Positions 1,916-32,486 of a stretch of 64,000 nt of DNA are shown here, in pieces. The notes under the pieces were generated by a model. The model was not told the DNA's origin, searched no databases, and saw only the letters and a program-made list of their open reading frames with translations. This stretch comes from Neelides folsomi (lineage: Eukaryota > Arthropoda > Collembola > Neelipleona > Neelidae), in assembly GCA_034687125.1 (NCBI GenBank), contig JAQGBZ010000074.1:62001-126000 (forward strand), given 5' to 3'. How positions within the stretch are numbered: position 1 is the stretch's first letter; each line of letters begins with the position of its first letter. The translations under genes and the position numbers were made by a program.

Positions 1916-4900
1916 TCAGCGCCCAGCTTCAGAATAAGTGGAAGGTCCCTCGATGCTGCACACAGAGTCTTCGATGTCGTCTCCGTGGTAGCGGAAGGAT
2001 CGTTGGTTCTTCCGTTGGAGCGCCTGTTGGGAGTCACAAAAGACAAATCCATAGAAAATATAATCTCCTTTGCGAACTGCTAATTTGAAAGGAAAATGAA
2101 TTCGGAGAGAATTATTTGAATACTTGCCTTCTCTCGGCTCCCTTTCTTCTGCAAGACGGCGACCGGGAAAGAAAGAGAGATTAATATTGGGGGCCTTTCA
2201 TTAGCCGGGATTGGGGAATGTGGGAATGGAGGGTCGTCGGAATATCATTACTTGTAGAGAGAATCGGCGGTGTGTGGGCTTCCTTCCTCCTCTCCTTTTG
2301 GAAATGTGAGGATTGTCCTTTCTCATCGTTTTGTTCCTCAAGAGTTCCAGCTGTGTGTAAACTCGCTTCAGCTCCGTCTGGAAAGACATTACATTAATGC
2401 CAAGGAGTGTGGAGTGAAAGTGTTTTTTGTGTTTACATTGGCAAAAACCATTATTTCCCGTAAAATGAGACAATTTCTCAAAATACATATGAGGGGTACC
2501 CTAATGTCTCCTGGGTCCATGTCGGCGAGATTTATCTCTGCCAAGTCGAGGTCTCCGTTGATGGTGTCGAGGGCCTTGACGATTCGAGTTGTTCCGCCGT
2601 CAGCTCTCCTCACGAGACGCTTCCTCCGTTCCTCTCTCACGTAGTAAAACTGAATATCAACACGCATAAATACTATCATTATTTATGGATTTCTGTCATT
2701 TCCTTGTATAATTTTCACATCTATTTTCTTAAAAGGATTCCCATCATTGGGGAAACCCTCGTACTTATTTACATTAATGTATTAAATGACTCCCTTCTCC
2801 TGCTAAGTATTTTTACATACCGACGTGTCATGAATCTGGAGATTTATTTGTGATAGATTCTCATGAATTGTACTTAACTAATAATTTGGGCTTCCTACAC
2901 TTGATATTCATACTTAATATTCTTTTTGAACCCCAACCCGATCTTTGTATAGAATATTTGAGTAAAATAAGGGAGACATTAACAGATTTTACTCACTCGG
3001 ATTTTGTTATTGGTATAAGAATTTTACCATAATTTTATGCTATCTGTATTGCTGAATCTGTGCTTGAACTATTTATTTTAATGTATTTAGTCTATCCATA
3101 GTTATTGAATTTCGCTTTATATTGAGCCTTTCTCATATTAAATTCATGATCAAAGAAAATATCCAGTCTGAATATTTTGTGAACTAGACAAGAAATTTGC
3201 ATATTTAAATAAAGTTGGTAAATGAAATTGCTCAAACTTGCCGAGCCATCATATTTTGGAATTAGAGTGGATGACCGAAACTGTAGTTTATCAGTTTTAT
3301 CTCATTATTTTTTGAGCGGTTATTCTGTAGTGGTTTCGTACCTTTGGTGCAAAGACGAGGATGAGAATGATGCTGGTTGCGACGTGAGATCGGGCGACAT
3401 AGAGGAGTAAAAGAAACAAGGACTCGTCCTCGGCACCTCCAAACCTCTGCACACTTTCCCGGATGAGGATCGTGGCCACGGAAGCTATCGTCTGGAAAGA
3501 TAAATGCATCTCTCATAAATGACGAGGGTCTGTCGGAGGAATAAAATGAAGAGGGAGAGCTCGGGCTCATAAACCGTTCTTGAATCTCAGCTCTCTTATC
3601 TCTTCAATCTGCCTCCTAGAACGGGCAACCCTAATGCTCACAATAAAATAAAGAATCATAACAGAAGAGGATCGATTTCCTTGTGCAAGAGCCCCGGCTT
3701 TATCCTCCTGATGGCCTCAGTCACGAGAAAAGCTCTGTGAGACTTTTCCACCCTCAAGTTCTCCAGCATTAAGAACCGCAAAAGGATCCCACACACGGCC
3801 CACCAACGAACATCTCCATGCGGAAAAAGTCAGGCCCTCCTTGCCAGTTATTACCCACATTTCCCGTAATTGCTTTCTACCAGCCAAACCCAAGTTGTTG
3901 TGGGAAAGCACGAATGCATACAACATGCATTTATTTTAATACTTTCTTGTACATGGTACATCATATCCGCCCCTCTCGCTCTGAAGAACAACACAAATTT
4001 ATGGGAGGCAAAAGGGTGAATTCCGCCAAACATTAATTATTGAAATTTTGAAAATGTCAGGCCTGTAATTTATTTTTTCTATTCTAGATTTTACTAATTT
4101 GAAGATATTAAAAAACTGGAGTAAACATTGTAATACTGACAAATACAGTACAGTATTTGGAAATACTTCAACTATAGGGTTGGTAGACCCTTTCTAATCT
4201 TCTATTATGACCCTAATATTTCACTCCGTCCCTCCAACCTCGACATCTAATTTGCGGAATAAAAACATTTAGAAGGCCCTCAGTTGTATTTATCAAATTT
4301 TAATGAAATACTTCAAGTCAAATGATCCAATAGACTCAAATGGACTCTAATTCCACATCCAGTCATTCCGGTTCCCTCACAATTTCCGAGTGAAATGAGA
4401 GAGCGCATAACGTCGGTTCATCCGCTGGCCCTTTAATAACTGCGGAAGGAGAGATAGAATAATAATGATCTTCATCAGAATGAGCTTCCCGAGGAACCGC
4501 AGAACTTCGTTGGTTTGGAATTCCCAAAATGAGAGCTTACTTCGACGATCAGAGCGGCGCTGTACCATCTGCGCTCGTTCCATGGGGCCAAGGCGTTCCT
4601 CAGGTGGTACGCCATATGAAGACCCACGCCAAGAAACAGCAACTCTCCTGAACAATTCATAAATGTTCAAAAAGAGATCGTTATGGATTTTCAAATGAAT
4701 GGAGATGGGGGAATTTTCCATACCAATTTCCGTGACTCGATGCCAAGGAGTCACTGGGCAGAACGAGGTCGGGAAACCGCTGGAGTCAGTCACCGTCCAA
4801 GCAGCCATGTAGAAAACGACGACGGCGAAGATCGTCGCGAGGTAACGGATGATGTCCTTTTCTCGAACAACCCATCGATGAGCCTTGCGAGTTCGGAATT

Positions 4901-7900
4901 CAACGAGAGCCCTAGGGAAAGTGAATTTGAAACCACTTCGGTTTTAATCCGATTCCACCCACTTCCACTACAATGAAAACAAAAGTTGAGGAGAAACAGT
5001 CAATTTGCCCAAAAGCCAAATAATGGCATCCAACCTCACGTTTCATATTTCTCTATAAGTAGAAATGTGAAATGGCAATAAATTTTCAATGTGGGTAATC
5101 GGATTATCGCTAAGTTGGTAAATTGTATTTATGCGCTACCTATTACCTAGCGCCATTACATAAAATTCTATTTAATTGAATAACAAAATATTTGTAATAA
5201 TTCAATTCAAATTATTTCATTACTCCATATACCCCCTACTATGTATTTAGATATTCGTACTTACGTACAGAATATGGCCATAATATTCATAATATATTAT
5301 TAAATATCAATCATTTAATTCATCAATTGTAAAGAAATACAAATAACTTAAAACAGAATTGATCTACTAAATATTTATAAAGGAAATGTAAAGGTGGAAA
5401 AAGTTGAATTCATAGATTTCGACTTAAGAAACTGGGATTTATAGCACGTACCTATAGATTTTAAGGACGAGAGCACCGTAGGCGAGAGAAAAGCCAAGTT
5501 CTCTCGACCATGGTTCCAGAATGCAAATGAGTCTTGAAGGGTCTTCAATACTTCTAAACAGCGTCGTTCCGTAGAGGAGAATGGATCCAAGGACGACGAC
5601 CTCTGTGACGGGCCACATGCTGCTGCTCATCACCTGCTCCCGACAACTTTCCCATTTAAGGCTCAATCTTAAAAAGCTCCCCTTTGAGCTACTCAAACTA
5701 AACAGATTCTTATGATTCCTATGTAATGTACACTTAATATACAACGGAGGAAATTGAGACCTTCAGTGCGGGCCACGCATTCAAACTGCGGCTCAAGGAG
5801 GTGAGGAGCGTGTGATAAGGAATGAGCTTTCCCCATCTTGGATTAACTTTTCTTTGAGTAATGAGAAGTGAGAAAGGGCGGTTTGTGGATATTTCGTATG
5901 CTTCTCATCATCTCGTCTCATTATTCTCAACATCCCATACATAATTCCTTCTCCATAATTTGAGCTAGTATATATGCTGATGGTAAAAGGAGAAAGCTCC
6001 AGGGTTCATACATAAATGTATGTATAAATATATTTATAAATATACCTATACCGATACTTATGGTTAGTACATACTGCAATACATATCTACACTTGATCCA
6101 GAGGAACCAGGAAAGTCCATGGAGAAGACAAAATGAAGTGGCCCATTGGAAGTCTCGTTACGTCTTTTATAGCTCACTCTCGAGACATAATTTCCTCTCC
6201 GCCTCCCTCCCTCACTTGCCCTCCACTTGAGGGAAAACAATTTGGGGAGGAATTGATTAATCAAGGACACTCCTCCTCCTTTCCTCTCCCATCATAATTC
6301 ACACAATTAAAAGTTTAGGAACTTTTGACTTGAACAAAAGTTTTTCCAACGTAAGGAGAAACTTTCCTCCAGATTTACATTTCGTGCTGAAGCATGGGGC
6401 GTAATATTAATTAAAAGCCCGTTATGTAAGAGAGTATAACAGAGCTCCATGCTGAGTATGCTGGCTGAAGTAATCCATTCCACCGTATTATTCAACTCGC
6501 CTTTGTTCAAAAAGAAGTAAAGCCCATAGGATCAAATGCCCTAATTACTAAATACAACATTTACTTTGGGTCATTGAAACGTTTGTTATTGAATTTAATA
6601 GTACTTCAGCTACTCAACTCCTTGGAATATTTGGAATTTTGGACAATGTAAATTTTCAAATATTAGTCATACATGATAATATCAGTATTTAGCTAATCCT
6701 TTACAATTTGGAGACCTAGTTTGTTCACCCATCCATAAACGCGAGAGTATTAAAATTAATGAATTTTATTTAAATGGAAACTATTCATCTCACCTTGGTC
6801 TTTCTCTGAGTGAAGACGGCCACGGAGAGAAGACTCGCTACTAAAATGGCGGCCAATTGGACAAGAAAGATGATTTGGCGGGTTGAGGCGTCGCTCCGAA
6901 TGCATGCCTTTCCAAATTCTTCATCCTTCTCATACCATTCTAAGCACTGGCAGGCGTAGGAGTCGAACGAGGTGTTTGCAGCACTCACAGGGCTTTCAGC
7001 CACACACTGTTAAACAATTCATTAAAACCCATAAAAGAACATCCATCAACATCATGAGCTTTTCATCATAATGCACATAAATTGGAGAAGGATTCCTCAT
7101 GCTTCTCTTAACATGTCACGTCATTAAGTCCCTGACTGAGTAAGTGGGTGTGTTTTAGACAACGACTGCTGCCAACAATGGGATTTGATATACAGAATTA
7201 AAGATTCTAAGCTATTTACAATAGCTTACTTTTACTTAATGTTAGATTTAATTTAATTTTATTATTTAAGTTATTACTTTTTAGAACTTTCATTTGAAAA
7301 TAATTTAGGATGCAGTTTTCCAAACGTTCAATAGTTAGCAGAGGAGAAGAAAATAAGAGGACAATGCAAGTAAATTGAAATTGAAGTTAATGAAATCTCT
7401 TAATATGCCTTTGCCCAAATTCCGTCTGGGTGGTTTTCCACTCCTTTGACACTTTCTCCATTGTTCGGTGGATGAAAGAGGGGAAATTGGATTTTACGAT
7501 TGGCTAATGAACGGAAATGGTTTCTTTTCTCTCAATTCATGTTGAGTCAGTAAATAAGGTTCACCACAGTCGCACAATCGGGGGATGGGGGCGGGGGGTT
7601 TCTTTGTGTGAGGAATTCGATTTACAATTTAGACAAGGTATGTCTCCGATGTCGGAGATGGATTTGGGGAAGGTGGGGGGAGGAAACGTCCCTCATCCAC
7701 TTACCTACTTGAGACGGAAAGATGAGAAGAAAGAAATGTGATTATGAGAATTGGATTACCTTTGTTGAGAGCGGGTCACAAGCATGGCCGAATCGGAACT
7801 CTGATTTCGGCCTAGAGCACGGGTCAATAATCCACGCCGAAAACGGGACCCTCAGCCCAATCCGATATCCTATCCCACTTGATGGGGGAAAATAAGAGGG

Positions 7901-9224
7901 GCTCGATAATCTCATCACATTCAAATGCACTATGTAAACCTTATCGACTTACAAGCAAGGCTGGGAAAAGAGACATTTTTTACACAAAACAAGGACCATG
8001 TTGAAGGGAATATTGGATATTGCACCATCAGCATTACTCGGCATTAAAGAAATCCTCCTCAAAAATCATCAGAAAATAACACAGAAAACTTTTCATCCTC
8101 TCTTCCAATTTGGATAAGTTTTGAGCCGCGCCGTGTCGTCGTTCTTCAATTGTTATTTTTTTCTTTTATCCATAAATTTCTCAAATTCCTTGTTTATTTC
8201 CAGTTTTCAGACGGAGTGAAAAGGTTGAAACCGTTGGGTCCTGCGGGAACATCCTTCACTGGATCGATATCCCTTCACTTGAATCCCATTTGTTCCTCCC
8301 ACATTGGGAGGAAGAATAGGAGAATAAATCTGAATGAGGAGGTGTGGAGCCGAGACGTCTCTTGCAGATCAACCATCATCATTTCCCTCTTTATCAGCAA
8401 AGGCAGAAGGCACAAAAGCTCCTTCATTTCCGAAAGGCCGGTTCTCCCTCGGAGCCAAAACTTCTAAGCGATTTTCAAATTTCCCTACCCAAATGGGGAA
8501 GGGAGAGAAAGGAACCTGAAAGGAACGTTCGTCTTCCACACTCCAAAGATTCTTTTTACAAGGAGGAATAAAAATAAAGTCAAACAAAATGCTCGAGTCG
8601 AATCCAATAAGCTTTTAAAGTGAGCCTCTTTCTCTCTCAAACAACTCTCTTCGACCTCCGTGAAGAGCCCATACAAACTCAATTGTGCTGTAACATTCTC
8701 CTGTTACCAACGTCGTTCACTGAGGCTCAGATAAGGAACTGGGTCGAGGGAGAACATAAGCATGCATGGAGAATTTAATAATAAGGCGTTTACCTGATCC
8801 CTCGGGTCTTCCCAACGAATCCGAGCTCTTCGCCTCGTGGAGGAATCCAAAAGAAATCTTTGGAACTGGCTTCCTCCTCTTCCTCATCTCGGAACAACCA
8901 GTGGAAATGCTCACTCGTGTGCAACTTGCGATTCCGTTCCACGACCGTAGCATGGGTCCGATCTTCCTTCTTGACCCAACATGCCTCGACCCGCTCTTCG
9001 GCCGTCAGCAGAAAGTCACAGAGGGCAAAGTTGAAAACGCTCTCGTTCTTGCTCTTCTCCCGCTGAAGCGTGTAGGCCACTGACGTTGAAACAAGCCAAG
9101 GGAACCAGGGAAAGTCGGCCGAGAGGAAACGTTGTAGATGGGCAAATTCCTTCTTCTCTTCGTTCCCCACGTGGAGGCCCCCTGAGGGGGAACAAAGGAG
9201 AAAACCAAACAACCACCACCACAT
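1916..9224 (-). CDS. Orphan class C G-protein-coupled receptor, GPR158/GPR179 (smog/CG31760) type, 10 exons
   Basis: Seen: coding exons in transcript order 9224-8794, 7877-7760, 7006-6794, 5633-5452, 4911-4724, 4647-4541, 3491-3342, 2649-2500, 2377-2252 and 2023-1916. All reading phases match and give about 590 residues. The first exon starts with a signal-like segment (MWWWLFGFLL). Exons 2-3 join into an EGF-like module (HACDPLSTKC ... YACQC). TM1 follows in exon 3 (IIFLVQLAAILVASLLSVAV) and TM2-TM7 lie in the next four exons. Diagnostic for the family are LVEFRTRKAH after TM3, ELLFLGVG in TM5 and, in the tail, VYTQLELLR ... NPHISKRR. Known: relatives are plasma-membrane receptors with an extracellular Cache/EGF region that bind RGS proteins; smog acts in G-protein signalling during gastrulation. 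Inferred: the N-terminus is the least certain part, because a strong acceptor ending at 9182 could make exon 1 internal. The tail is much shorter than in vertebrate GPR158. Confidence 0.88.
2650..8793 (-). other. Introns of the GPR158-like gene
   Basis: The larger introns are 2650-3341, 3492-4540, 4912-5451, 5634-6793, 7007-7759 and 7878-8793. Open frames inside them on either strand show no family signature and do not splice in phase. Their composition is mixed, with GAG/CTC-rich tracts, unlike the AT-rich introns of the 22-46 kb core. Confidence 0.6.
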
Positions 9225-10831
9225 AATAAAAATAATATCACTTCCCCATCCCGAGCTCCGACAATTCCTTAATTGGTATTTGACCCTTCGATTAATTAAG
9301 AGAGGAGGAGGAGAACGCGGGGGGCTGAGCGGAGCTCGAACGGTCCATGTGGGACTTGTGGGCTCTGGTTGTATTCTAGCCAGCCTCTTGGCCAGGACGA
9401 TGGCTGGATGTTGATGCAGATCTCAATTGCTCCTCCACGCAAGAGCCACCGTCTCACCCGAATCCCCGAACCGACCCACCCGGCCGCTCCCTAGCTGCTT
9501 CCCTACCACGAGAGAAGATGAGCCTCTGCTTCCAAGATTGAATTTCTTAAAATTGCCGTCTTCATTTTGGCAGGTGAACTCGATCCCGCTCACGATTCTA
9601 ATTCCCCCTTCGCCCGGCATCGGTTGACACTTCCTCTAATGGAGAAGACCTTTATCACCCGATCCATCTCCACGATCTACAAATGTTCCCTTTGCATGCA
9701 TCCCCGACACAAGGGAAAACAAATGAGGAAAGTCAACTTTACAAAATACTTTCACATTACGGATTTCCATCAAATGGGAATTACGACCATAGCGACGTTT
9801 TCATATAACGCCCTTTGTATGGACATCAATGGTTCCTAAACTTTAATAATTTATAACTACTACATAGCACTTGCATACCAACACAATATCATACATGGTG
9901 GTGAAAGTCGAATCAGGATATCCAATTTTGTAATAAACTCTGTCCATTTTTCAAAGTTTTTTCTCGAGCGTGAGAGATTGGATTATTATTATCGATTAGA
10001 ATCAATGGAGAATTCCATTAAAGACTCTCGCCATTGAGTCCAACACATGTTAAGGTGGAACGGTTCAAGTCTCACAGACAAAGAGTGATGGGAGGATTAA
10101 ACGGGAGCTAATTTTTTTAAGGAGAAAGGATTCAATTTCAATTCGGTGATTGTAACGGCCATTATAGATAGCTTCCTATATCCAACCAAGTTAAGGTTCG
10201 GGTCTGCGTTGTGCACAAACACCTACACTTTATTTAATGGTGAAAAGAACAAAGGAGATGAGGAGTGACGGGGAAATAAGAAGCTCATATAAATACTGAC
10301 TTTCTTCACTCGCCTGCTCACTCCCAGTCCCCAAGGTTCAGCACTTCTCTTCTGAATGTCCTCACACACACACAAAAGGCAGGAGGGGGAAGTGAAAAGA
10401 AGCCGACAAAGGTAAAACTCCCTTAAACATACACGTTTATCTCCCTGTTTCATTCTAAGAGGCCCATGGTGAGCAGATCTTGGGATTCCTTTCGGGTCCC
10501 ACACTTGGAGCAATTATAAAATTCTTTTCTTTCCCTCTCCAGGAAATAAATTTCACCATCAACTTTTTTCACCTAACATAGAAGAAGAGAAATTTAATAA
10601 AATTATCGATCTTAATTTCCCATCCAAACCGCATTCCAAGAGAGAAACAGCCAACGTCTCACTTCCAGACTTCTGTCATAATTCTTTCGACGGATTTCAT
10701 CATTCCTCTCCAAGCGAAGGCCCGCTGACGGCCCATCCTCTCCTTTGTCAACGGAAAGTGAGTAATGGGTTTGAAGTGTAAGTAATAATGGCGGGTTTGA
10801 AAGCCAATTTTTCCCTTTTGCTACATTAGGC
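9225..10831. other. Divergent intergenic region between the GPR158-like gene (-) and the TTC25-like gene (+)
   Basis: About 1.6 kb separates two genes transcribed away from each other, so it probably carries both promoters and 5' UTRs. The part at about 9300-9640 is noticeably GC-rich, a plausible promoter or 5' UTR of the receptor. I could not identify a further coding exon or a specific regulatory site. Confidence 0.45.
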
Positions 10832-13800
10832 ATGGGGCGAGTGAATAAGGGGAAAGAACGGCGGAGCCTCGCTATCCCGCTCCCCCGCCCCAAATTTACG
10901 ACCTACTTCGACGAGGGCGGAATGCACTACAGGGCGGGGGAGTACAGGAAGGCTCTTTCCTCCTTCGACCGAGTTAGTATTTGATTTCCATTACCATCGA
11001 TAAACAATAACAAGGAAGAGGGAGAGGGAGAGAAGTTCCAGGCCACGGGGTCGAACCTCGCTCTTCTCATTTGCTTCCTCCGGCCAACTTTTCTTCAGCT
11101 TCCGTTGGAGCCCCAGTGGAGAACTTAAACCACCTAAACTTTTAGGTTCCCAGAGGACAAAAGACTCCCGCCCCTGTGTACAAGAGGGTATTAAGGAGTA
11201 ATGCTAAACGAGCCTTTCTCTCGCCCTTTCTCTCACTCCACCTCCGCACTAAAAGATTATTATTCCTAGGATTTTCCCAATTCCCAACCCTCCCTTTGTG
11301 TTTGAGCTTCGGCTCAAAGGACAGGTTTTAGAAAAATACATTTTTCATGTAGCATATTTTATAGGAGCAATATGAGAGGTCTTTCACATTGTAGAGGTAT
11401 TTTAGGAAAGTTCATCCAATATTATAAGTCCTCAAAAACTGTAGATTTAATAGAAAAAAGCCAAAATATATCAAGAGAATATACCTATAAAACATATAGA
11501 AAATTTAGTTATCTCATATAAGTAATATCGCGGATAAATAGTAGATTTTATAAGAGGTTCTTTAGGTTTTATAAGCATGGTTTATATCCGACATTTGAAG
11601 TATCAGTTCAGACCCATCCAACATCCAGCAAATAAAAACTCTAGTGAAGTCTGTCTGGATTGTGAAGATAATCCCCTGATATACTTTTATAGGGAAGGAT
11701 GTATAAATACGGAGTAACTACTTGGGGTGAGTGATAATAGCGAATTCGTCATTGTCTCCCAACCCATCTCAATCGCCCATCATTCCTCTCGACCTTTTCC
11801 TTCCTCCACTTGAGCCTCGGGAGTTGATCCATATGGAAATTCCTCAAAGGAGCTAATCTCCCCATTCCTCTTTACTCCCGCCGAGGAAACAAATTGAATT
11901 TGGGGACTGTTGGGCTTCGACGAGTTTCCCTTTGAACAGTGGCCAAAAAGAAAGTTCCATTAGGAGAAGACGGGAGAGAGAAAAGGCAGTCTGAGTGAGT
12001 AATTGGGGAACTGGGAGGAAAAAGAGAGAGATTATGTTCAAGCTGAGACTCTCTGTCGCCCCTAATCGCCGCCTAGATTTCTAATTGAGAGATCCTCTGA
12101 CGCTTTTTCACTCTCACCGGTCGTGAATGAAGCAGCTGGGGCTGTTATGAAAAGGAAACGTCGTTCTTCCACTCCACTTCATCATGATGATGATGAGATG
12201 GATGATTTTAATTTTGTGTTGGCGATATTGGGAAAGTGAGATGGTTTGTGAGAAAATGTCAATTGAAAGTCTCTTTGAGCCTTTTCCACACAATTTCTTT
12301 ATTCGTTAGAGGAAAGAGGGAAAGAAATGAGATATGAGATTTGAGTCATTTGAAAGAGAATTCTGGCATGTGACAGGAACATTCGACGGGAGTTGCTTTT
12401 AAGATAAATAGAATCTACTTTGGTTACGATTTAACTAAGTATATAGGGACATTTTGTATATTGGAAATATTAGAGGTCTTTCTGGTCTTTATATCAACTT
12501 GCGTTTCGAATTCTCCTTGTTTTCCTTCTCCATTGTGGAGAGGTTGATGAGGAGAACCACAGAAAGCTATTGAAGCAGTAATTTTCGAATCAAAGGAAGA
12601 GAGAGCGAAGCTCACTATGAGTAATCTCGTCTCGACTCCTTTTTGGAAACATGAAAGGTCGAATCGGTTTATCTATCATCTCCATTCCGAGCTCGTCCTC
12701 ATTTCGCCATCCGGATCTAGAGAGAGTTTCATTAGCTTTAAGAGCGGCTCCTGCCCAAAGTCCCTGCCTCAATTAATAATTAAAAGGTATGTACATACTT
12801 ATGGATCCTAGGTTTACAGTTTCTCGTTCTATAAACGTTCACTCCAATGTTTTAACTGAAATATGCAAGCAATTAAATTTCGGGAATGTTTCCTCTTCTT
12901 TGACCTGTTAGTTGAAATCCAAAGGATAAATTTAAATTACATATGAAATATAAATTGGCTTCATTTTTGCACAAAAAAGTGAAGATTTTTTACAATGAAT
13001 TATGAATTGGAATTTAAGATCCTAATAAATTTAGCTGCTGAAACACGGAATTTGTTCCATGAAAAAGTGTAGAATGATAAAATCTAAAATTGTTGAAGAT
13101 TAAACTTCACCAGGAAGCCATTGAAAAGATTTTTTAATATTACATTATTACTCCCATTACATTCTTTATTAGATCCAATTTAACTTTTCATAAATTGAAG
13201 CATTACAATTTGAGAAAGGAATAATGTAAAAAATAAAGTCACGACTCGAGGATTATATTTGAGGAAATTTTCCAGAATAAGTAATGAAGTTGTTAAAATG
13301 ATAAGAGAAAGTTTCCCTTATAGAAAAGCACTAAGCATACGCCAGTTAAAAGATATTACACAACTAATTCTCTTGAGCAGCAGGATTGTTCAAATGAGGA
13401 ATCTTCTCATCTCCAACTTTGCTTCCTAATACGCCTTTCTGACTGAGAGAACTTTAGCTCTGTTTGCCAATTGGTTCTCTTTTGAGGAGAAGGTTTGTAG
13501 GAACAGAAGGAAGGAAGTTGGGTAAATGAAATTTTAATCTGTACAAATAGAGCCAGGAGGCTAATTGAGAGTTTGATTCGGTCCGAATCCCAATTACAGA
13601 GATAAGCTTCTTTCAGATGTCCATTCCCTCCCTATGTCCTTATAAATTGAACCATAGAATAATGGGTCTATCTGGAGACTGAATGGCCGAGGAGTAGATG
13701 AGGTATGATGAGAGGAGGAGGGGAAGAACCATCAATTTCTCTATAAAGAACCCTTCGCGTCTTCATTCACTTCTCACTCCATCGTAGGAGGGGGGGGGGG

Positions 13801-16800
13801 AAGAATAATGAAAAAAAGTTGAGTCGGAAAGTTTATTTGAACTTTACAAGAATTTTCTTTTTCTTCGTGCTCGTCGTACCTCTTTGAAATTTTAACTCGC
13901 TCTCTTTTTATTAGAGAAAGGGATAAGGTGGGGATAAGGTAGAGTCAGATGAGTTTAAACCCTATGGATCCTGACCCTTATAAAAAGTCTACTCAGGGGC
14001 TAATATGCCCAATTTGAGAGAAAAGACGGATAAACGACAAATCCCTCTGGTTCTTGAAGCAAAAGAGGTGAAAGTGATCGAACGGTGCCGTCCCTCCTTC
14101 CACTTTTCCCCTCTCTTTTATACACCATAATCATCATTTTCGCCTCGCGGCCGTTTAATTCCTCTCGTAAAAGAATATGAATGATCCAGCATCGATTTTC
14201 AATTTCCGCCCTTGAACTGTGTGTGGGTTGGACATTCTCTCGGCCTCATTGTCTCACTCGGCGATTCTCGATGGGCGGATTGGAATTCGCCCCGCGGAGC
14301 CGACATGAATTCGGGAATAACAATATATGTACACTGGGGTTATATAGTCACATTCAGCACTACGACCATCAGTTGGATATCGGAGGAAATTCAGACCGGG
14401 CAATCGGGCCAACAAGGAATCGATCCCACTTCCGCTCTCGACAGACAAATTGCAATGGTTGAGGAAGAAATGAAAACGTCTTTTTATGTCCGCTTCAATT
14501 TTCTCTGCCTTTATTGTGGGGAGATTATACAGAGGAGATATGAGCTTTGAGCTCTCTCCATTGTTGTTCAAGCGGGGAGGAAGCGGGTCGAATACAATTT
14601 AAACTCCGATGCGGTTAAGGGGGAATTGGGGAACGGAGGAATCTCCCGCTCCTACTACTTAACCGCTACTGTCTTCTCATCAACTCCGTTTCCGATATCG
14701 TCTCCTAGCGACGGCAAAATAGTAAATGAAGCCTTCACGCCCTCCCATCAGGAAAACTGGATCTCTCTGGGCTTAACTCGTCTTAATCTCTCTTTATTCC
14801 CCCATCAACACGTCAAAGTACTGAGAGTTTGATCATCAAAAACTCTCCTTTTGTTTTCCCCTTTCTTTTATCCCTCTGCCCTTTGTTTACTCAGCGAGCC
14901 AATTAGTTACTGGGAAAAAGTCGTTAGGTCGTGGTCGGGCTAATTAGAAGCACAAGAGTGGGGCACTCGAGGTTAATTGTTCACTAATTGATCCGACGCA
15001 AACAGTCAGGGAAGACTCCACTCGAAGACGTTTTGTGTGATTGAGGGTAAGAAGATCGTAACTCGGATATCGCTCCTTCACATCTCTCTGCACATTGGTC
15101 GGTGGGGCATAAGAGGAACGTCTGTTCGAAGCCTATTCCATTTAATGGGAGATTTGTCTGAAGCGGATCCGGATCCTGAACGATCTTCTTTATGGACAAC
15201 TTCCTCCACTTACGCAAATCTCATTTTATCGAGTTGTGATCGGGATGCGTTTTCTCCAGCTTGGTCCACGCCGCGGTCGAGGTCCTTGTCGCCCACCGCT
15301 CCACCGCCTCTTCGTCTCTCTTCTCGAGAGCGGAGGAAGAGAGAAGAGGAGGAAAAGCAAAGGCTCAAGAAGAAGCTCGAGGCAGAGGAAGCGATGAGAC
15401 GAGCCAAACTCCTCACTCCGATTCTAAACCCTTTGGCTCAACTGGAGATGCAGAGGAAAAAAGTGATGGAATTTGAGAAAAAACTTCGAGCTCTCCTTTC
15501 AGACCCACAATGCTTCGAGGGCTTAGTTAGGCAAGAAGAAGAGGGAGAGAGTAATAGCCATTCTTCAACCTCTGTTCCTGGCACCGGGAGGGTTGAGCCT
15601 CGGACTCTTATCCAATTCGAGTCTTTTCATCGACCCCGAGGTGATTTTGAACAGTCTACCTTGAGCCCCGCTAACCACCGGAGTTCAAGTCGATCACCTT
15701 CCCGCCCCAAACGAGTAGAATTTGCCACTGACCTCGAAGCAATTGCAACAATTCCAATGAGGGAAGAAGAGCGAACGGAAGGGTCGCCCGGAAAAGGTAA
15801 ACCCACTTGTTCAACTTCACTACTTATCGCTCCCATTTGCTTCTATCGCTATTGCATTCGAACATACCGTTCCTATTCAATAAATAAATAGGAAAAGTTT
15901 GCTCAGCAGTCAAGTGAAACACGATATGGATTTTCTGGACACTTGAATCTCTCCCCCAGTCCTTTCGCGCTTCTTGGGTAATGGGGCGGCGATAATGCTA
16001 AGGATTTTGGTCGTCGCATCATCCATGGGAATTCCTTTACTTTGAGAATCTGTTCCTACACCTCCGCACTCCTCCCGCGTCCTCATCCTTTTAGGAAGTG
16101 AGGCGAGAACGGGGAGAGATTCACTGCCAGAAAGGATCCACAAAACCCCATCTTTCCTAATTTATATTACGACAGTGTATTCATACTTCTTCTCCCTTCT
16201 CGGTGTAGCAGAGGGGAAAGGAGGGAAAAACGAACGTCGCCGTTCCCGCTCACCTTCAGGAGCTCTTATGCACGAGATTAGAAAAATGTCCTTGGCCTCT
16301 CAAGATGCGGCCGAAGAAAAGAAAAAATCCACAGCGACGGAAGCCCCGAAGAAAGGGAAAAAGCGGAAGAAGAAGAAGAGAGAGGAAGAGTACACGGACA
16401 AAGATCGTGCCGCGGCCGTGACACTTGGCTCCAGAGATATAAAGCTCTCTTTGAAGGCGAAGAAGAAACGAGAGCGGAAACTCAACATTTCCCTCGATCT
16501 TCTTAGCAGTGAAGAATTTTTGGCGGCCATGCTATTGGTAGAGGCTTCTTTCCAAATGAGAGTTAAAAAGGATCCTGGAGCTGCCCTGGCGACTCTCAAC
16601 AAGGTTCCTCCGCTCTTCATCCTTTTCATCTCCGATCTTCCGCTTTTTTAACCAACTTCCTCAGAGAAGTCAGGGGGAATCACATACATATAGCTTACCA
16701 TTCTTGCTTATCGTTAGTATATTATGTAACTAATGTAAGAACGTATAATAATGTATGAGTGTTAAGGTTGACTTGTGTAAGGTATTGGAAAAGAACCTTA

Positions 16801-18490
16801 ATTCACTTTCCGGCTCTCGAACAAGAGCGAAGGGTTCGAATTTAATTTCCTCTTCTTCTTTTCTTAAACTTCCATGTTTAGCTCCAACGGAATTGGAGAT
16901 GTCATTTTCAGATCATGCGAGATTACATTAGGATGAGACTTCGACTTCCATTTCCCCAAATCCACCCACAAACTAGGGAAATTGAATTGAAGTAAAATGT
17001 ATAAAAAATGGCCATAGTTGGCAAATTGACAGGGGGTTATGGGCATATAATATACAAATATATTACCCTTTTCATCCATCCACGTCTCCCTCATTTCTCT
17101 TCCTTTAGTTAATAAAAGGCCTCTTTCGGTCTTTCGGATCTTTTTGATCTATTAAGGTAATTGACTATTATGTTGTTTGGCCTTACAATGTAGTCATTAG
17201 AGTTGCAGCCAGCCCACCGCGGGGCTCTTGTGGCCAGAAGTCAATGCTACTTGAAGCTTGGCGATGCGGAGGCGGCTTTGCGAGACGCCGAGTCGTCTTT
17301 CGAGAACAACGAATCCTTCATCAATGGACTGTTCTGGTACGCGGAGGCACTTTACAATCTCGGTCAATTTGAAAAGGCCCTTATTGCCTTTCACCGCGGC
17401 CACCGGGTCCGGCGTGACATGGAAGGCTTCCGAATTGGTGAGGAGAAAGTCAATGGATTTCCCACTCCCTTCTCATTCTCTTCTCTCATAGGGATTCAAA
17501 AGTCGCAGGAAGCAATCCGGAGGGCCATAGGAGGTCTCATTTCCATTCTTCCTCCTCCTTCCCTGCATTCCAATGACCACGTAACGATTTTTTTTCACAG
17601 ACCGTTCGGCGACGCAGATCGAGGATTTAGACGAGATTCTCCCTATGATTGAAGAAATGGAGGCTGTGAAGAACTGTGAGTCCTCGCCCAGTTTCTTCTC
17701 TCCAGGGAATCGTGATTTATTGCCTTTACGGCCCTTATATTATTAGATAAGGGGATGGACGAGGACGTCGGGCGGAGGCGGCTCACCGGCAAGCTCAAAA
17801 CACCTTCCAAGACAAGGGCCAAATGGGTAGCTCGGGAAGTATTAGGACAGATGTACTTCGACAAAGACTACCTCACAAAGTTTCTCCACCGCCCAGGTAT
17901 TCGATCAAAAGTTACACAACTTGGAACTCCAAGTTGGAATTCAAGTTGGGCTTCGCCTGGGGGAAAGGCCGGAGAATGGAGAGAGCTTTCCATGTGAAGA
18001 GTTCATTAATCGCACCCTTTAATTTATTGAGATTGGGATCTCTATAGGGTCATTAAACATAGAGGACTCCTTATCTCACTTTAGTGATTTTAGATATTCA
18101 GAAGGAGGACAGAGCAGCGCAAGAGCTGAGGGGAAATGTCGTTGAAGCACTCAACTACCTGGAGATTCGCGAGGAGTTCTGGCGCCAGCAAAACCCAATG
18201 TATGCTCGGAAGGCCGGACTCAACATGAATAACAATGTGAGGGAGATCCTTAAAGGAAACCCATTTGTATGGGTTGAAAAGTCCGTTGGTGGATTTGAAA
18301 CCTTATTAAACTTTGAGTAACCATCAGTTGCTCAATTTCATGTTTCACATCTTGGGTATTTTTCCAGGTTGTGCTCGAGTATGAAGAACAGGAGAAAGGA
18401 AAACAAGACAGTGGGAGAAGAGGAAAGGAAAGTTGCGAAAGTCGGATGAAGGGCCGAGGCCATCCAATTCATCCCAAAACCTCCCCATGA
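10832..18490 (+). CDS. TPR protein, outer dynein arm docking complex subunit 4 (TTC25/ODAD4) type
   Basis: Seen: exons 10832-10972, 17194-17437, 17492-17533, 17601-17675, 17747-17896, 18094-18236 and 18368-18490 join in phase into about 305 residues ending in TGA. The first exon holds the start of TPR1 (EGGMHYRAGEYRKALSSFDR), which continues as SLELQPAHRGAL in exon 2. Later landmarks are VARSQCYLKLGDAEAALRDA, LFWYAEALYNLGQFEKAL, GIQKSQEAIRRAIG and FWRQQNPMYAR. These match the order of vertebrate TTC25 blocks. Known: TTC25 is an axonemal protein needed to dock outer dynein arms in motile cilia and flagella. Odd: the product stops soon after the FWRQQ block, so the C-terminal TPRs of the roughly 670-residue vertebrate protein are absent. 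The first intron is 6.2 kb and contains an alternative exon pair, listed separately. Confidence 0.82.
10973..15144 (+). other. First part of the long intron of the TTC25-like gene
   Basis: No exon with a recognisable family match was found in these 4.2 kb. Several open frames of 60-110 codons overlap on both strands without splice support. A run of ten G's lies at about 13790-13800. The sequence alternates purine-rich and pyrimidine-rich tracts. Confidence 0.5.
15145..16603 (+). CDS. Alternative 5' exon pair of the TTC25-like gene, or the 5' part of an overlapping gene
   Basis: Seen: exon A (15145-15796) opens with ATG and encodes a charged, coiled-coil-prone segment (RRKREEEEKQRLKKKLEAEE) and then a Ser/Pro-rich stretch. 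It ends in phase 1 at AAAG|GTAAAC. Exon B (16209-16603) follows a pyrimidine-rich acceptor in matching phase. It encodes a lysine-rich block (KKGKKRKKKK) and ends with LVEASFQMRVKKDPGAALAT followed by LNK. That end is in phase 0 with the exon at 17194, and together they make a textbook TPR with the consensus residues at positions 4, 7, 8, 11, 20, 24, 27 and 32. Joined to the shared downstream exons the protein would be about 607 residues. Weak point: the donor after LNK is AAG|GTTCCT, which is not a strong consensus. The lysine block could act as a nuclear or microtubule-binding signal; that is inference. Confidence 0.6.
16604..17193 (+). other. Intron before the shared TPR exon
   Basis: Non-coding. 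It contains the branch/acceptor region ending ...TTACAATGTAG at 17193, which sets the start of the shared exon. A second AG six bases downstream (TCATTAG) would break the TPR consensus, so the upstream AG is preferred. Confidence 0.55.
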
Positions 18491-18562
18491 AAGATGCCCT
18501 GAAAGATACTCCAAAGATACTCTAAAGATAGTCCAAAAGATATCCTTAAAAGATACCTTAGT
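18488..18562 (+). repeat. Degenerate short tandem repeat, unit about 11-13 bp
   Basis: Successive copies read AAAGATGCCCTG, AAAGATACTCC, AAAGATACTCT, AAAGATAGTCC, AAAAGATATCCTT and AAAAGATACCTT. The array sits just 3' of the TTC25-like stop codon, probably in the 3' UTR. It is imperfect and short; I infer replication slippage. Confidence 0.6.
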
Positions 18563-21500: not shown

Positions 21501-22326
21501 CTGTGAAGATCTATTCATTTTCCTTCCGAGTAGAATTATTAATGCGCATTTTCCACTTTCGGGGCAAATCTGCTTGATGGATTGACGAATCATTAAATAT
21601 TAAATTCAGATTAAATTCCAAGTTTCAATCTTAATCAATCTCTATCAATTTCCAATTTTTAAATCATAAAGAATTAGGGAAAAGGGAATTCCCCTTTATA
21701 TTTCCAATTAATATTATACCATATTGTGATATGTATTGATAAAACATACCGAGAACTTAATTGAATCCAAACACATATTTAACCATTTGTACAAAAATCT
21801 CAAGTAAAATACTTAAGTACCTTTGTTTAATGTTTAATGTTTATTATTCTTATTGTTATTTGAACAAACAATAATAATTTATGTACCTCGATATTAAAAC
21901 TTCACAATGAATATTAATTTATATTTCAATGAGGGTAAATACAAATAGTCAAATAGCTGTTTAAGCATAAATTAGATATTTGATTAAAGAAGGTAATTAA
22001 ACTCGTATGAAAACAAGAATGGCAATTCGTTGAACATTCTAAAACCACAAGAGACATTTCATGCTCAGAACTTTGCCACTACTCATAATATTGAAATGTT
22101 TATAAACAATTTCAACATTGAGTTCATTGGAAAGTGTCGAATCAGCTCCTTTCTGACTTTAACCACTTTGAATTCCATTAAATGAAAACTGAACGGAACG
22201 AAACACGACCATAAACGTACACAATTATTTCCCGACATTTCAAATGAAGCCTCCCTTGAGGAAACTCCGCTCTTCAAATATACTCACAATTAATTAATTC
22301 AGAAATTAAATCAACCCGAATCCGAA
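18491..22326. other. Intergenic region between the TTC25-like and SmydA-like genes
   Basis: No supported gene. Immediately after the TTC25-like stop codon, at about 18488-18562, lies a degenerate tandem array of roughly six units of the type AAAGATACTCC. The rest is pyrimidine-rich at about 19850-20130 and AT-rich toward 22 kb. Open frames of up to about 140 codons exist but show no domain or splice logic. Confidence 0.5.
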
Positions 22327-24999
22327 ATGAAGAATTGCGGGAACCATTGTGTTTTCTTTCCAATCATGAAGGAATCCACCGAGGCGGGTCGGAAAGAGAC
22401 CGAAGAGGGAAAAAAGTCATTGCCATCTGCTTCAGGTCAGTGTCAAGTTTGTGAAGTTGATTGTGATGGCCTTTGCGCCAACTGCAAACTCGTCTCTTAT
22501 TGCTGTCGAGAACATCAGCTCAAAGATTGGCGAACGGGACATCGCTACCATTGTTATCCGGCGTCTGTGGAGGAATCCAAAGATCTCGGTCGTCACCTTG
22601 TAGCTTCGAGGGACATCATGGCCGGGGAGGTTTTCCTAAGAGAACTCCCCTTCATGACCGGACCCAATACCGGCCATGGACATCTCTTTGAACTTGAAAT
22701 GACCCATCATCCTATTTGCCTCGGATGCTTTCAGGTTGTCCGCTCAGGATATCTTTGCTCATACTGCAAATGGCCAATGTGCTCCATTAACTGCGAAAGG
22801 GTAAGTGTTATGTTTTGTATTAATGGGTTTGATTCGTGTGTAGCTTTTACATTTCCAATAATTGCACAGACAGCATAATTTTTGCAACCTTCAGCTCTTT
22901 TGTTTCAAGTTAATTTTTAATTATTCACTTATTTATTTATTATATTAACAATAGGGCCAAGTATTTAATTTCTGTATACATTATAACATTTTTATAACTA
23001 TTATAGCAATATACCTACGTTGCTAAATGGTTCTACTAAATTATATAATAAAAATAAGTATGAGTCTTCACTTTGTATTTTGGTATTAAATACATTTACG
23101 TAATAAATATTATTATTGGAATGTTACAAAATGTCTTTTTATCTATAATTATCAATCTATAAAATTATTATTTAACTTATATATTTATTATATAAACCTA
23201 TTTCTATGTATTTTGTAATACATTTTTAATTAATTTAATAACATAATTAATTTAATTTTGTGTGCAGAACGAAGACCATGCAAATTTTGAATGTGAAATT
23301 TTTTCAATGGCTTCCGTGGAGCCGTTTTCACCTTGGCAAGGGGCCAAATACCAGACAATTTTTGTCCTCCGGTGTCTTCTCCTTCAAAAAGTTGACCCAG
23401 CTAAATGGGAACAATTCATCGAGCTTGGAAACGAAGAAGAATCAGAAGTCAAAGTTGAGCCAAGTCCCACAGGTTACTTAACGAGGAGTGCTGAAGAGTT
23501 CATTAACGAGGTTTGTGGACTCGACCAAGAGCCCGAACTTATCCATAAAGTCTCGTCCATCCTCTGTATAAATGCCATTGGATCTAACGATAGGCCCTCG
23601 ACCTATCCAAACAGGCTGTACAGGTAAAAATCAATTTTAAATCCATTTTTCTAATTAACCGTGTGAAAAATCCATAATTTTATTTCTTCTTCGTATTAGG
23701 GCTGGATCATACTTGTATTACACTGGACGGCTCATTTCTCATAATTGCATCCCAAATGCTGTTCGTGTTATCAAACCAGGAAATTCCGAGCTTCATGTCA
23801 AAGCCTCTACTTTGATTCGTGCTGGAGATGTTGTTTCCATTATGCTAGCTCCTTCCGTATCTCCAGTCGGAACTCGAGTAAATTGACACTTTTTGCAAAC
23901 ATTTACTGATTACTCCCATTTAATTCCTATTGTTAGTACGTAAAAAATATGATTTTATGGCTCTATTTAATCAAATAGACACGCAGAGAACATCTCAAAA
24001 CGGGGCATTTTCGTAATTGCGTTTGCAGGTATAAATTGTTCAATTACATTAACTTGACAAATAAAATGGCAGGAGTCGTTTACGCGTGAATGCATTGTGC
24101 ATCGAGGCATTGAGATTGCAAAAATAAAACTAACATAAAAATATGTTCTGTATTGATTTATTAGTCGATGTCAAGACCCAACAGAGCACAAGACGTTTTT
24201 GTCAGCTATTAAATGTGCAAATGAAAGCTGTGGGGAACTGAGCGATCCCAACTCAGGGTATCTCATAGCTCAAAATCCCATGGAGGAGTCGAGCACTTGG
24301 ATCTGTAATCATTGTGGAGATGTCAAAGAACAAACTTTCATTGCAAATGTTATTGCACAAATCAAGCAGAAGCATTCGCAAGAGCACATCTCGGATGTCA
24401 ACACAAACCTTGGATCAATTGATAAGCTCGAACGGCTTTTGGCTCAAAACAAAGGCGTCACTCTCCACCCAACTCATCATTTTATCTACAATGTGGAGTT
24501 TGACATTGTTCAACGTGTGTCATGTATCCTTGCCTCTTCCACCGTCAACTCGGAAGTGACGAGGGCAAAATTGGCAGAGAAGCTCGTGGCAAATTGCAGG
24601 AAATGTCTGGAAGTATCTGAGATTCTTTTTCCAGGATACAATAACTCCAGAGGTTTAAAAAATATTATGAATTCTATTTATTAAATAATATTTAATGGTA
24701 AAATTTAATTGTATAATTAATTAATAATAATATTTTCAGGTCGACTTTTGTATTTTCTCCAACAAGGACTATTAGTTTTGAGCCTACGTGAGATTTTCTT
24801 GATGAACAAGAGGAGAAATTATAATGCAAAGCCCGAAGCCCGTAAGCGATTTGAAGATATTCTCAAAATCCGCCGTGATGGAACGGAATGCTTGTCGTTG
24901 GAGCCCAAAGGTCGTGAGGAATTCCTCCTTGCACAAGCTATGCGTGATGATGCCATCTCCGATATCAAGAACATTAAAAAGTTTTTCCAAATTAAATGA
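22327..24999 (+). CDS. SET and MYND domain protein, arthropod SmydA type, 6 exons
   Basis: Seen: exons 22327-22800, 23268-23623, 23700-23877, 23979-24028, 24165-24652 and 24740-24999 join in phase into about 601 residues. A later in-frame ATG at 22369 is an alternative start. A MYND zinc finger (CQVC ... CANC ... YCCREHQLKDW) lies near residues 38-75. The SET N-terminal half follows (LGRHLVASRDIMAGEVFLRE). The SET core motif lies in exon 3 (LISHNCIPNAVRVI). The post-SET region has REHLKTGHFRNCVC followed by SRCQDPTEHKTFLSAIKC. Known: SMYD proteins are lysine methyltransferases; arthropods carry a divergent SmydA group. Odd: the usual NHSC is SHNC here, and the aromatic residue after GDVVSI is Leu rather than Tyr, so methyltransferase activity is doubtful. 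Its 3' end converges on the protease-homologue gene. Confidence 0.88.
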
Positions 25000-25391: not shown

Positions 25392-27358
25392 TCAATAAGA
25401 AAGTTTCCTATGAAGAGATTTCTTGTATTTCAGTTCCATCTTTTTCAATCCTCCCAAGATGTTTTGGAATGGAGCTGTTAAACAATTTATTTCATCCGAT
25501 CCGTCTCTGCAGTCTTGATATCCATCACATTGATAACTATAAACAAGATGTCATATACCTTGCCATTTTGTTTCACTTTAACTTTATACGAATTAATTAT
25601 AAACTCACGTTTTTGGAAAGCATTTCATATTCGTGTCTTGACATTTAAACTAGAAAAATACAAGTCATTTAAATAAGGAGAAAATTATCCAGAAAAGCTT
25701 TCATTTTTGTTAGAGATGTAATTGTTTTTAAGTACATGAGTGTTTTTGTCGCATTCTGTCGAGCAATGTAAATGTTCATCAGAACCATCAGAACAGTCGA
25801 GGCTCATATCACATTCAAATTCTTTCTCAATGCATTCGCCAGATCCACATTGGAACTATAAAATATTTACATTTAATTAAAAAAAGGCACGAACAAGGTT
25901 TTAAATGTTTTTAAAGAGAATAAATATTCTATTACCCCTCGACTACACTTGGGACAACTCGTATGTTCGTCGGAGTTGTCTGCGCAGTCATTATAGCCAT
26001 CACATTCGTACCAGTCCCGCACACAGTTTCCATTATTGCAATTGAACTGAAAGTAAATGAGGGAAAACATTTCAAGGTGAGTCGTAACAATAACAATGAG
26101 GCAATTAGGAATAGTTTACCAACTCTTCATGTGTATAATGAGCTCGAGGGCCCATTGAGCTTCTTTCCTTCTAATAATAGTACTTAAAGTACGGACGTGA
26201 TCGTACAAATGTATACTAAATGTATTACATTGAGGCCAAAAAGGACAAGGATGGGAAAGCAAAAGAAAGTAAGATTTATACTCACTCCACTACAAGGCTG
26301 AGGAACTCCGCTTAAGACGCTCTGAATAAACGGCAAAACTTGTGAGACAGCAGTGAAATATGCTGGAACGTCTGGGACATCAAATTGGTGAAGAGCGCAG
26401 TTTGTCGAGGAAATGATTCCACACAGTACTCCTTTGCAAACTAATGGGCCTATTAAATTACAAAGTTATTGTCAATTTTCTCTTTGAGACATTTCCTTGA
26501 ATTCAAGAAATTCAAGAAATTCAAGTTGTAAAATAAAGTTGTAGTAATATTGGGCAATGGCTATTATGCAAAATCCTTTACCTCCGTTATCTCCGTAGCA
26601 CGTGTCTATTTTCCCATCTCCGGCACAAATAACTGGTGATGAGAGCGGAACGCCTAATTCTTCATATTTAGCTTGGCAAGTTTTAGAGTCCACGTAAGAA
26701 AGCTGGATTTTGTTGAGTTTGGTCGGCCAGGCGTCGTGCCACCCACCGAGTCGTCCCCATCCGGCCGACGTGCAATTCCCAGGTGTAGGTTGGTGATTTG
26801 GGTGGGGAAGTTTGGCGGGTTGGACGTGGTCGTCAAATGCAAGTTTTTCCGTAAGCTCCAAAATGGCCACGTCATAATCCATTCTCCCATTGTAAGGATT
26901 AAAATTCGGATGGAGGGTGATTTTCTTCACGTAGCGGAATTGCTCTGTCCCCTCGTCAATGTGATTGTCCAAGTCTCCTGCAATGATTTTGTAATATCCT
27001 TCGTTCACTGCATGGACGCAGAAGGCTGCAGTCAAAATGTGACTACGTAAAAATAATAAAATGATAATGTGATGAAAGTTATTCAAATTAGTCGGAATTG
27101 AATTGAATTCATTTGAATGAGATTTGAATGGAAAAAATTAAATTACCTTTCTGAAATGATAATTCCGCCGCATTCATTGAACATCCCATAAGATTGAAGA
27201 GCAACTATAAATGGAAATTCTCCCGGCGTCGCATGTTCTCCTCGGACAATATTTGGTTTATATTCGTTAGTCTTGAGCTTCAAGCCCTTGGTTCCCATTT
27301 GCGAATCGAATCCTATTAAAAGTAGGAGTTCAAAGCTAAAAATCAATTTCAATCTCAT
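25392..27358 (-). CDS. Catalytically degenerate trypsin-like serine protease homologue with three C-terminal LDLa repeats
   Basis: Seen: exons 27358-27147, 27042-26582, 26449-26286, 26046-25936, 25855-25736, 25649-25609 and 25536-25392 join in phase into about 417 residues. A signal peptide (MRLKLIFSFELLLLIGF) is followed by a trypsin fold starting IVRG at residue 37. The catalytic His motif reads LTAAFC, with Phe at residue 78. The Asp is kept in MDYDVAIL (residue 128). The Ser motif reads DTCYGDNGG, with Asn at residue 223. The residue before IVRG is Asn, not Arg or Lys, so the normal activation site is absent. Three LDL-receptor class A repeats follow (CDGYNDCADNSDE, CDMSLDCSDGSDE, CDGYQDCRDGSDE). 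The third is split by an intron after a 41-nt exon. Known: non-catalytic protease homologues act as cofactors or adhesion proteins in arthropod immunity and development. Inferred: a secreted binding protein, not a protease. Confidence 0.9.
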
Positions 27359-28495
27359 GATTCAAGATCGACTTTTGAGACCGACGAGAACTTTTTTGAT
27401 CAAAAGGGCTGGGCCCTGAGAGGTTTGAAACAAATTAGCACTATGAAAGGGGGGAAAGTTTTATGAGGCTTATGCAAGGCCTTCGACCTAAATGATTCAA
27501 GAGCTCTCAATCAAAGGAAAGAGATGAAGGTAATGAAGAGAGACAGAGGAAATTGAACTTTTTATATCTTTCTCTCTCCTCCCTTCGTTCCAGATAACGA
27601 CTTCTTTCTTCTCTCACTTCATTGATTGAGAAAGCCGCAAAAAGTAATTCTTCCCCTTCAACAACATTGAAACAAGGTGAGACGAACCTTTGATTTATTT
27701 CCTATTTCCTATTGAACTAATGGCTTAAAATAAAGCCAATATTTATTTCCTCTTCTGATAAGAGTTGGTGCTAAATAATAATAAACTTTTCCCAAATAAA
27801 TGAAACTTTGAGCCACTTCGTATTTGTTTCAAGTTTAACGAGATGGTCTGGTGAGTAAAATGACATATTTGAAACTTATGTATTGTATGATGTAAATTAC
27901 GTTATTTATTGGTCCTAAACACAACTAACTAGTCATAACACGAATGTTTGCAGGAAAAGTTTAGTCGCATCCGTATTTTCCCCCCAGCTTGCAAAATGGC
28001 CTTATCGGTCATGTTCACGTTCATGGTGAGGGTTGTTAGCAAGTTAAGCTCACTGTATTTACGTATTAGCTATTTGTTCCACTTTCACGCGCAAAAGCTC
28101 ATTGATAAAAACTTATTTAATCAAATAGAGCCGCTTGAGATATTCACAGCCGACTTGAATGAAAAAAGTTGTAAACTCTTCAAATAAATAATGCCTATAT
28201 GCATAGGCGACTGCAGGCCGCTACTCTCAAGTTCATTGTTTACTCGGAATGTTGACTTAAATGGTTAATTCATGGAATTCGGACGGATTAAAAAATAAAT
28301 GAAGGAAATAAACAAAGTTTTTAACTCTTTTAGATTTTTACGATTATGATACTTTTATAATTTACATTTTAATCTGACTATACCAATTTTTTATACATTA
28401 TTAAATACATAGAATGTGTTCAAGAGAATTGGACCTAGCCTTCCGAAAGTTCGGAACAAATAGAATTTGATTGTTTTTAATTGTAGGGGTAAAAT
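27359..28495. other. Spacer between the protease homologue and the kinase gene
   Basis: About 1.1 kb that should hold the protease-homologue promoter and the kinase 3' UTR. I see no other gene. A short open frame on the plus strand at 27948-28187 has no support. Confidence 0.5.
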
Positions 28496-32068: not shown

Positions 32069-32486
32069 TTCACCTATAATTGATGTTGAAATATATTTTA
32101 TATAATAACCATACATGCAGATTAAGATAAAATAGAATGGAGAATGTTCAATTTTTAATAATTAAAAAGATACAGGCTGTGACAGACCTTTAAATAATTT
32201 TGTTTTCTGAATAAACGATTAAAATGATTTTACGATAGGATGTTTAATTTATTATAAAAAAATATTATGAAGCATTTAGAATAAGTTTGTAATGAATAAA
32301 TGATAAATATGATTTGTTTAAAAATTTTATAAAAAATGACTATGAACTATTTTAATTAAAAATATATAAATTAAATATAAACGTGAACATCCATCCAGTA
32401 ATAAGGCACAGTTATGGTTTGAAAAAATTTTATTCAATGAACAATATTGAATTTGTTTTTATATGATAAATAATAGTATTTATAAA
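32069..32486. other. Spacer between MCTS1 and DDX20
   Basis: A 418-bp AT-rich region between two minus-strand genes. It carries the MCTS1 poly(A) region at its right end and the DDX20 5' region at its left. No other gene is visible. Confidence 0.5.
32429..32434 (-). terminator. Candidate polyadenylation signal of MCTS1
   Basis: TTTATT on the plus strand (AATAAA on the minus strand) lies 53 bases past the MCTS1 stop codon, at a normal distance for an arthropod 3' UTR. Confidence 0.4.

Follow-up and report, generated by a model that had tools for sequence, protein, structure and literature searches.

A predicted half-length ODAD4 paralogue in Neelides folsomi with a candidate coding block in its first intron

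The window analyzed here is a stretch of 64,000 nucleotides (nt) of forward-strand DNA from the collembolan Neelides folsomi (contig JAQGBZ010000074.1, positions 62,001 to 126,000), and all positions given below without a contig name are positions within this window. It contains a gene predicted to encode a short relative of ODAD4, also called TTC25, a protein built of tetratricopeptide repeats (TPRs). ODAD4 is subunit 4 of the outer dynein arm docking complex, which helps to anchor the motors in motile cilia. The first intron of this gene holds two further exons, A and B, that appear to be coding in their own right (Table 1). A sequence-only reading of the same DNA had proposed that exon 1 and exon B are alternative partners of one shared exon at 17194, each of which completes the same first TPR. 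Here we describe the locus and its relative elsewhere in the genome, and weigh the possible roles of A and B.

Table 1. Positions of the features at the ODAD4-like locus
Feature	Position	Strand	Description
Exon 1	10832..10972	+	ATG start; first TPR to ...ALSSFDR, phase 0, then gttagt
Intron 1	10973..17193	+	6.2 kb
Exon A	15145..15796	+	Predicted coding, ATG, charged, low-complexity; donor AAG/gtaaac good, phase 1
Exon B	16209..16603	+	Predicted coding, lysine-rich; ends ...AALATLNK, phase 0, TPR-like half repeat; donor AAG/gttcct weak
In-frame continuation of B	16604..16651	+	15 codons followed by TAA; would form the C-terminus of a separate A/B gene
AATAAA	17111..17116	+	Possible poly(A) signal of a separate A/B gene
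Shared exon S1	17194..17437	+	Opens SLELQPAHRG; remaining part of TPR1, TPR2, TPR3
Shared exon S2	17492..17533	+	42 nt, phase-symmetric; donor GAG/gtctca atypical, position conserved with the paralogue
Shared exon S3	17601..17675	+	
Shared exon S4	17747..17896	+	
Shared exon S5	18094..18236	+	FWRQQNPMYARK region
Last exon S6	18368..18490	+	Briefly homologous to the paralogue before a tail of its own and a TGA stop; C-terminal TPR exons absent

Results

Structure and identity of the half-length gene

Exon 1 together with the shared exons encodes a product of 305 amino acids (aa), and A/B together with the shared exons encodes one of 607 aa. These lengths agree with the sequence-only reading, as do the coordinates and frames of the two upstream exon ends, both in phase 0, and the opening residues of the shared exon at 17194. 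The assignment to ODAD4 was also borne out. The short product matched the ODAD4/TTC25 chain of PDB entry 7rro over residues 19-259 (E 6e-50), the top match outside ODAD4 was a designed TPR protein (E 8e-30), and Pfam TPR families were matched as well. An approximate human ODAD4 sequence shared 93 of 231 aligned residues with the window gene. By these matches the window gene is ODAD4-like. It has the same predicted N-terminal TPR domain as the ODAD4/TTC25 proteins of PDB entries 7rro, 8j07 and 9cpc, but differs from them in lacking the C-terminal TPR half and tail and in the long first intron that holds A/B. No match to the C-terminal TPRs of the approximate human sequence was found in the window and the 20 kb upstream of it at E ≤ 5.

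Exon S2, with its gtctca donor (17492-17539), could be skipped without a change of frame, and most of its residues are conserved in the paralogue described below. Short imperfect tandem repeats resembling AAAGATACTCC, recognized by eye, occupy 18490-18560, just past the stop of the half-length gene and close to where its homology with the full-length copy ends.

A full-length paralogue elsewhere in the genome

The genome to which the window belongs (75.1 Mb in 840 contigs) was searched with the 607-aa product. Besides the window, contig C137 held four matches with identities of 69-82%, and residues 327-414 weakly matched contig C6 (E 0.11, 29% identity). The region C137:116422-119555 was modelled as a compact, full-length ODAD4 gene in which the C-terminal TPR exons are present. 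In residue and phase, the first exon of this gene ends exactly where exon 1 of the window gene does, and an intron of 79 nt then leads to the equivalent of the exon at 17194. Six intron positions match between the two genes, and at the position of the S2 donor the C137 gene reads GAG/gtaagc where the window gene reads GAG/gtctca. Unlike the window copy, the C137 gene has a short first intron and AT-rich surroundings, with a guanine-plus-cytosine (GC) content of 0.327 over the 40 kb around it versus 0.397 over 114 kb for the window locus. In a genome search with the C-terminal half of the C137 protein, only C137 itself matched at E ≤ 0.01, so no second copy of this half was found. No counterpart of A/B was found at the C137 gene. 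One candidate about 4.3 kb upstream of that gene was rejected as a 13-residue match amid stop codons.

The two copies have diverged for a long time. Over 298 aligned codons, amino acid identity is 71% and the identities at codon positions 1, 2 and 3 are 0.77, 0.84 and 0.42; dN is 0.21, and dS is saturated by the NG86 method or 1.6 by LWL85. Within the shared domain 188 of 240 residues are identical. Exon 1 shows the same pattern: its TPR part has 21 of 26 residues identical to the paralogue, and in these 26 codons differences affect 7 of 52 first and second positions versus 11 of 26 third positions (Fisher p 0.009). A recent duplicate or an allele is ruled out by the third-position agreement of only 0.42. 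A pseudogene is ruled out for exons 1 to S5, where the frame is intact and positions 1 and 2 are conserved. The second ODAD4 is unlikely to stem from a mixture of two species, because an MCTS1-like gene has a single match in the genome; COX1 also gave one match.

Because the genome contains a full-length gene on C137 and no second C-terminal half was found, sequence comparison makes it almost certain that the window gene is an old paralogue that was reduced to its N-terminal half and has been kept under purifying selection. By the same comparison, the 5′ end that joins exon 1 to 17194 is ancestral to the half-length gene and has been maintained, since exon 1 of the C137 gene joins the equivalent exon at the same point. 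Furthermore, the 10972/17194 junction is very likely used despite the 6.2-kb intron, because exon 1 itself shows constraint. Of the two, the C137 gene more probably encodes the canonical docking subunit. That the locus is a shortened duplicate, with a full-length gene elsewhere in the genome, is a point absent from the sequence-only reading.

The coding block in intron 1

Exons A and B were scored with a coding model trained on 15 other long open frames, from which A and B were held out. Exon A scored +32.6 bits in its own frame, compared with -22.5 and -69.7 bits in the other frames, and B scored +30.2 bits, in its own frame only. These scores were reached by 0 of 3760 and 0 of 4352 unassigned windows, respectively; the unassigned windows were overlapping stretches of the same lengths, taken from outside the predicted genes on both strands of the window's contig. 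GC content is 0.51 in A, 0.49 in B, 0.49 from 17194 to 18236 and 0.40 in the intron before A. Per 2 kb, the GC content of the window ranges from about 0.29 to 0.48, and A, B and the stretch of shared exons lie near 0.50. Judged by these scores A and B are coding, and both exon sets, exon 1 and A/B, end in the same phase before the shared exon.

In searches for relatives of A/B, the best PDB match had an E of 0.69 and the best Pfam match an E of 0.59, and the genome search with the 607-aa product revealed no further copy. Expansion of intron 1 by a transposon was also considered and set aside, as 10973-15100 has no second genome copy at E ≤ 1e-5 in a search that skips very common words.

Exon A joins B in frame at either 16209 or 16212 through a tandem acceptor, tagcag (16206-16211), with a difference of one residue. 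The start of B is uncertain. The two tandem sites scored 0.39 and 0.61 in our own acceptor model, against 7.26 for an in-frame acceptor before 16047; B may start earlier because this acceptor outscores the tandem sites.

The end of exon B

The donor at 16603 was compared with two donor sets. In the donor model of a hidden Markov model (HMM), about 1 of 162 HMM donors was as low as the 16603 donor, and 1728 of the 2808 GTs on the plus strand of the window were as high. In a set of 52 donors from recognizable genes, 3 were lower, and by this set 1340 of the 2808 GTs were as high. The 52 donors were picked by eye and comprise HMM junctions of recognized genes and 16 ODAD4 donors, other HMM junctions being left out, and only part of the junctions kept was verified by alignment. 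By either score AAG/GTTCCT is no better than an average GT.

The 15 codons past 16603 scored +3.6 bits in frame, compared with -3.4 and -0.2 bits in the other frames. This value is within the range of B itself, in which 66 of 116 windows were as low, and was reached by 221 of 4056 open unassigned windows. The idea that the coding signal ends at 16603 was rejected, as the score of -3.1 that it relied on had counted the stop codon (-6.7). GC content is 0.47 in the 15-codon tail and 0.36 from the stop to 17193. Because it is 84% pyrimidine the tail could pass for the start of an intron, although its 45 nt are too few to decide.

Other loci

Several other putative genes were recognized by eye in the window. 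They include a SMYD-like gene (22294-24684), a serine protease and a kinase (26472-29428), a DEAD-box helicase and the MCTS1-like gene (30134-33047), a nuclease-like gene (36923-39274), a carboxylesterase (42736-45597) and a zinc-finger protein (46821-49379). Elsewhere in the genome, C742 is a contig of 15,157 bases in which COX1 is open under the invertebrate mitochondrial code, and is probably the mitochondrial genome.

Discussion

We tentatively favor, with a confidence just short of even, the reading that A/B is a separate gene nested in intron 1 on the same strand. Such a gene would start at 15145, splice at 15796 and stop at 16651, to give a protein of 364 aa if exon B begins at 16209, and its transcript would be polyadenylated near 17111. 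The TPR-like end of B would then be due to chance or be a remnant. A separate gene is at least as likely as the spliced form because the 16603 donor is weak and the coding character of the frame persists for 15 more codons, up to a stop. The donor, the tail, the GC content and the poly(A) signal each lean weakly to a separate gene. An ATG at 15145, a coding-like frame to the TAA at 16651 and an AATAAA at 17111 are all present, and each could exist without a separate gene; we infer both the end of A/B and its independence. The sequence-only reading had allowed for two overlapping genes that share 3′ exons, and a second gene is retained here without the shared exons. Genes nested on the same strand of an intron likewise lie wholly within the intron with their own start and stop. 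Unlike these, the frame of A/B crosses a point that resembles an exon end and fits the next exon of the host.

A small self-trained HMM gene finder, adopted after attempts to find introns without supervision from the coding score alone had proved too noisy, also ends A/B at the TAA. This result carries little weight because the known exon 1 join and S2 were missed. Some introns that it predicts have implausible lengths of 1 to 30 nt, and the low score of the known acceptor at 17194 also indicates that its site models are impure.

The principal rival is a second 5′ end, which we hold to be only slightly less probable. A promoter before 15145 would produce a transcript in which A and B are spliced from 16603 to 17194, and the last 26 residues of B would replace the half-TPR of exon 1 in a 607-aa protein that carries a long charged N-terminus ahead of an unchanged TPR domain. 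B and the exon at 17194 are in the same phase, on the same strand and 590 nt apart, and the GC content of 16652-17193 is like that of non-coding sequence. Genes with alternative first exons likewise place two 5′ coding sets of equal phase ahead of a single shared exon. In the present case the predicted second set would replace half of a folded repeat by way of a weak donor.

The observations that weigh against a nested gene begin with the fit of the end of B to a TPR, which is the sole positive evidence for splicing from 16603 to 17194. On a small TPR matrix built from 17 repeats, with the register fixed by SLELQP, the last 26 residues of B scored 0.33. A score of at least 0.33 was reached by 6 of 12,347 26-mers from other HMM-predicted proteins and by 0 of 704 26-mers that precede an in-frame GT, and the tail of B ranked second of 324 within the A/B protein. 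Another version of the matrix gave 10 of 12,614 and 0 of 715, placed the tail third in its own protein, and found 48 of 20,000 shuffled tails as good. Similarly, the Pfam family TPR_19 scored 22.9 bits without a first half and 31.2 bits with B, a gain of 8.3 bits; the gains from B for TPR_8 and TPR_2 were 6.7 and 4.3 bits. Beyond the TPR fit, odd donors do occur in this species, as the GAG/gtctca donor at a conserved position illustrates, and we estimate that chance alone yields about one AATAAA per kb of such sequence. In addition, the HMM gene finder that ends A/B at the TAA fails to join exon 1 to 17194, skips S2 and shifts the start of B to 16047.

Nevertheless, B would be a poor TPR. All of the repeats with which it was compared outscore its 0.33: the 17 matrix repeats, each left out in turn, scored 12.9 to 41.4, the exon 1 sequences of the window and of C137 scored 5.1 and 5.3, respectively, and the stretches of the C137 protein read as TPRs scored 1.3 to 13.4. 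B would therefore be the poorest TPR among them. The first repeat of exon 1 was matched in isolation by TPR_2 (E 6e-6), and exon 1 raised TPR_19 by 11.5 bits (to 34.4), TPR_8 by 9.4 bits and TPR_2 by 21.1 bits. In contrast, the repeat of B in isolation matched no Pfam family at E ≤ 10. The fit of B is above usual chance, as far as these matrix and Pfam scores go, and yet the repeat that it would complete is poor. The claim that either junction can complete the first TPR holds, more strongly for exon 1 than for B, whose half repeat is in register. That no A/B was found at the C137 gene is a further point against the second 5′ end, along with the weak donor and the coding-like frame that continues to the TAA. 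From the original proposal of alternative first exons, the join of exon 1 to 17194, which is that of the paralogue, and the coding nature of A/B are kept, and the 16603 junction is the part thrown into doubt.

Carried further, the second 5′ end would mean that a truncated paralogue gained a lineage-specific N-terminus of about 350 residues, the last exon of which evolved to stand in for half of a TPR. The choice between the two promoters would then exchange the opening helices of the solenoid and, with them, its partner or its ciliary address. We regard this full scenario as unlikely.

It is improbable that A/B leaves exon B by another donor or forms a cassette that lies between exon 1 and 17194, in either of which cases the 607-aa protein would not be made. 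Three donors outscore the one at 16604 (0.74), namely 16538 (TTG/gtagag, 3.39), 16562 (AGA/gttaaa, 2.83) and 16509 (GCA/gtgaag, 4.51), and in-frame acceptors that exon 1 could use for a cassette exist both within A and before it, the best at 15046. However, the TPR score of the junction from 16538 is -14.3, the donor at 16509, being in phase 1, allows no in-frame join to 17194, and B is coding-like up to the stop. Least credible is that A/B is untranslated, a chance open frame or a decayed gene, as might be supposed from its lack of relatives in Pfam, PDB and the rest of the genome, since it consists of two long phase-compatible frames with a good donor on A and coding scores that none of the unassigned windows reached.

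What a half-length ODAD4 might do can be considered in light of work on other species. In mammals, according to PMC8595878, TTC25 and ARMC4 form an alpha-solenoid bridge between copies of CCDC114/151. We infer that a half-length protein could retain the N-terminal contact and could hardly span this TTC25/ARMC4 bridge. In Drosophila, PMC6367277 reports that docking-complex proteins differ between sperm and chordotonal (Ch) neurons, and lists the TTC25 orthologue CG13502 as Ch only in one table and as Ch and Testis in another. It is a reasonable guess that the full-length and half-length copies might divide labor by cell type.

A literature search for a TTC25/ODAD4 isoform, paralog, duplication or alternative promoter found no description of such a gene in titles or the openings of abstracts. 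The half-length ODAD4 paralogue with a coding block in intron 1 that possibly serves as a second 5′ end may therefore be new. Should A/B be a nested gene, what would be left is a half-length ODAD4 paralogue that selection has maintained, a modest finding, and a caution that automatic annotation may merge the two genes. If instead the long form is true, a duplicated ciliary gene would have acquired a new first exon that completes half of an existing structural repeat, which would offer a concrete route to cell-type-specific docking complexes.

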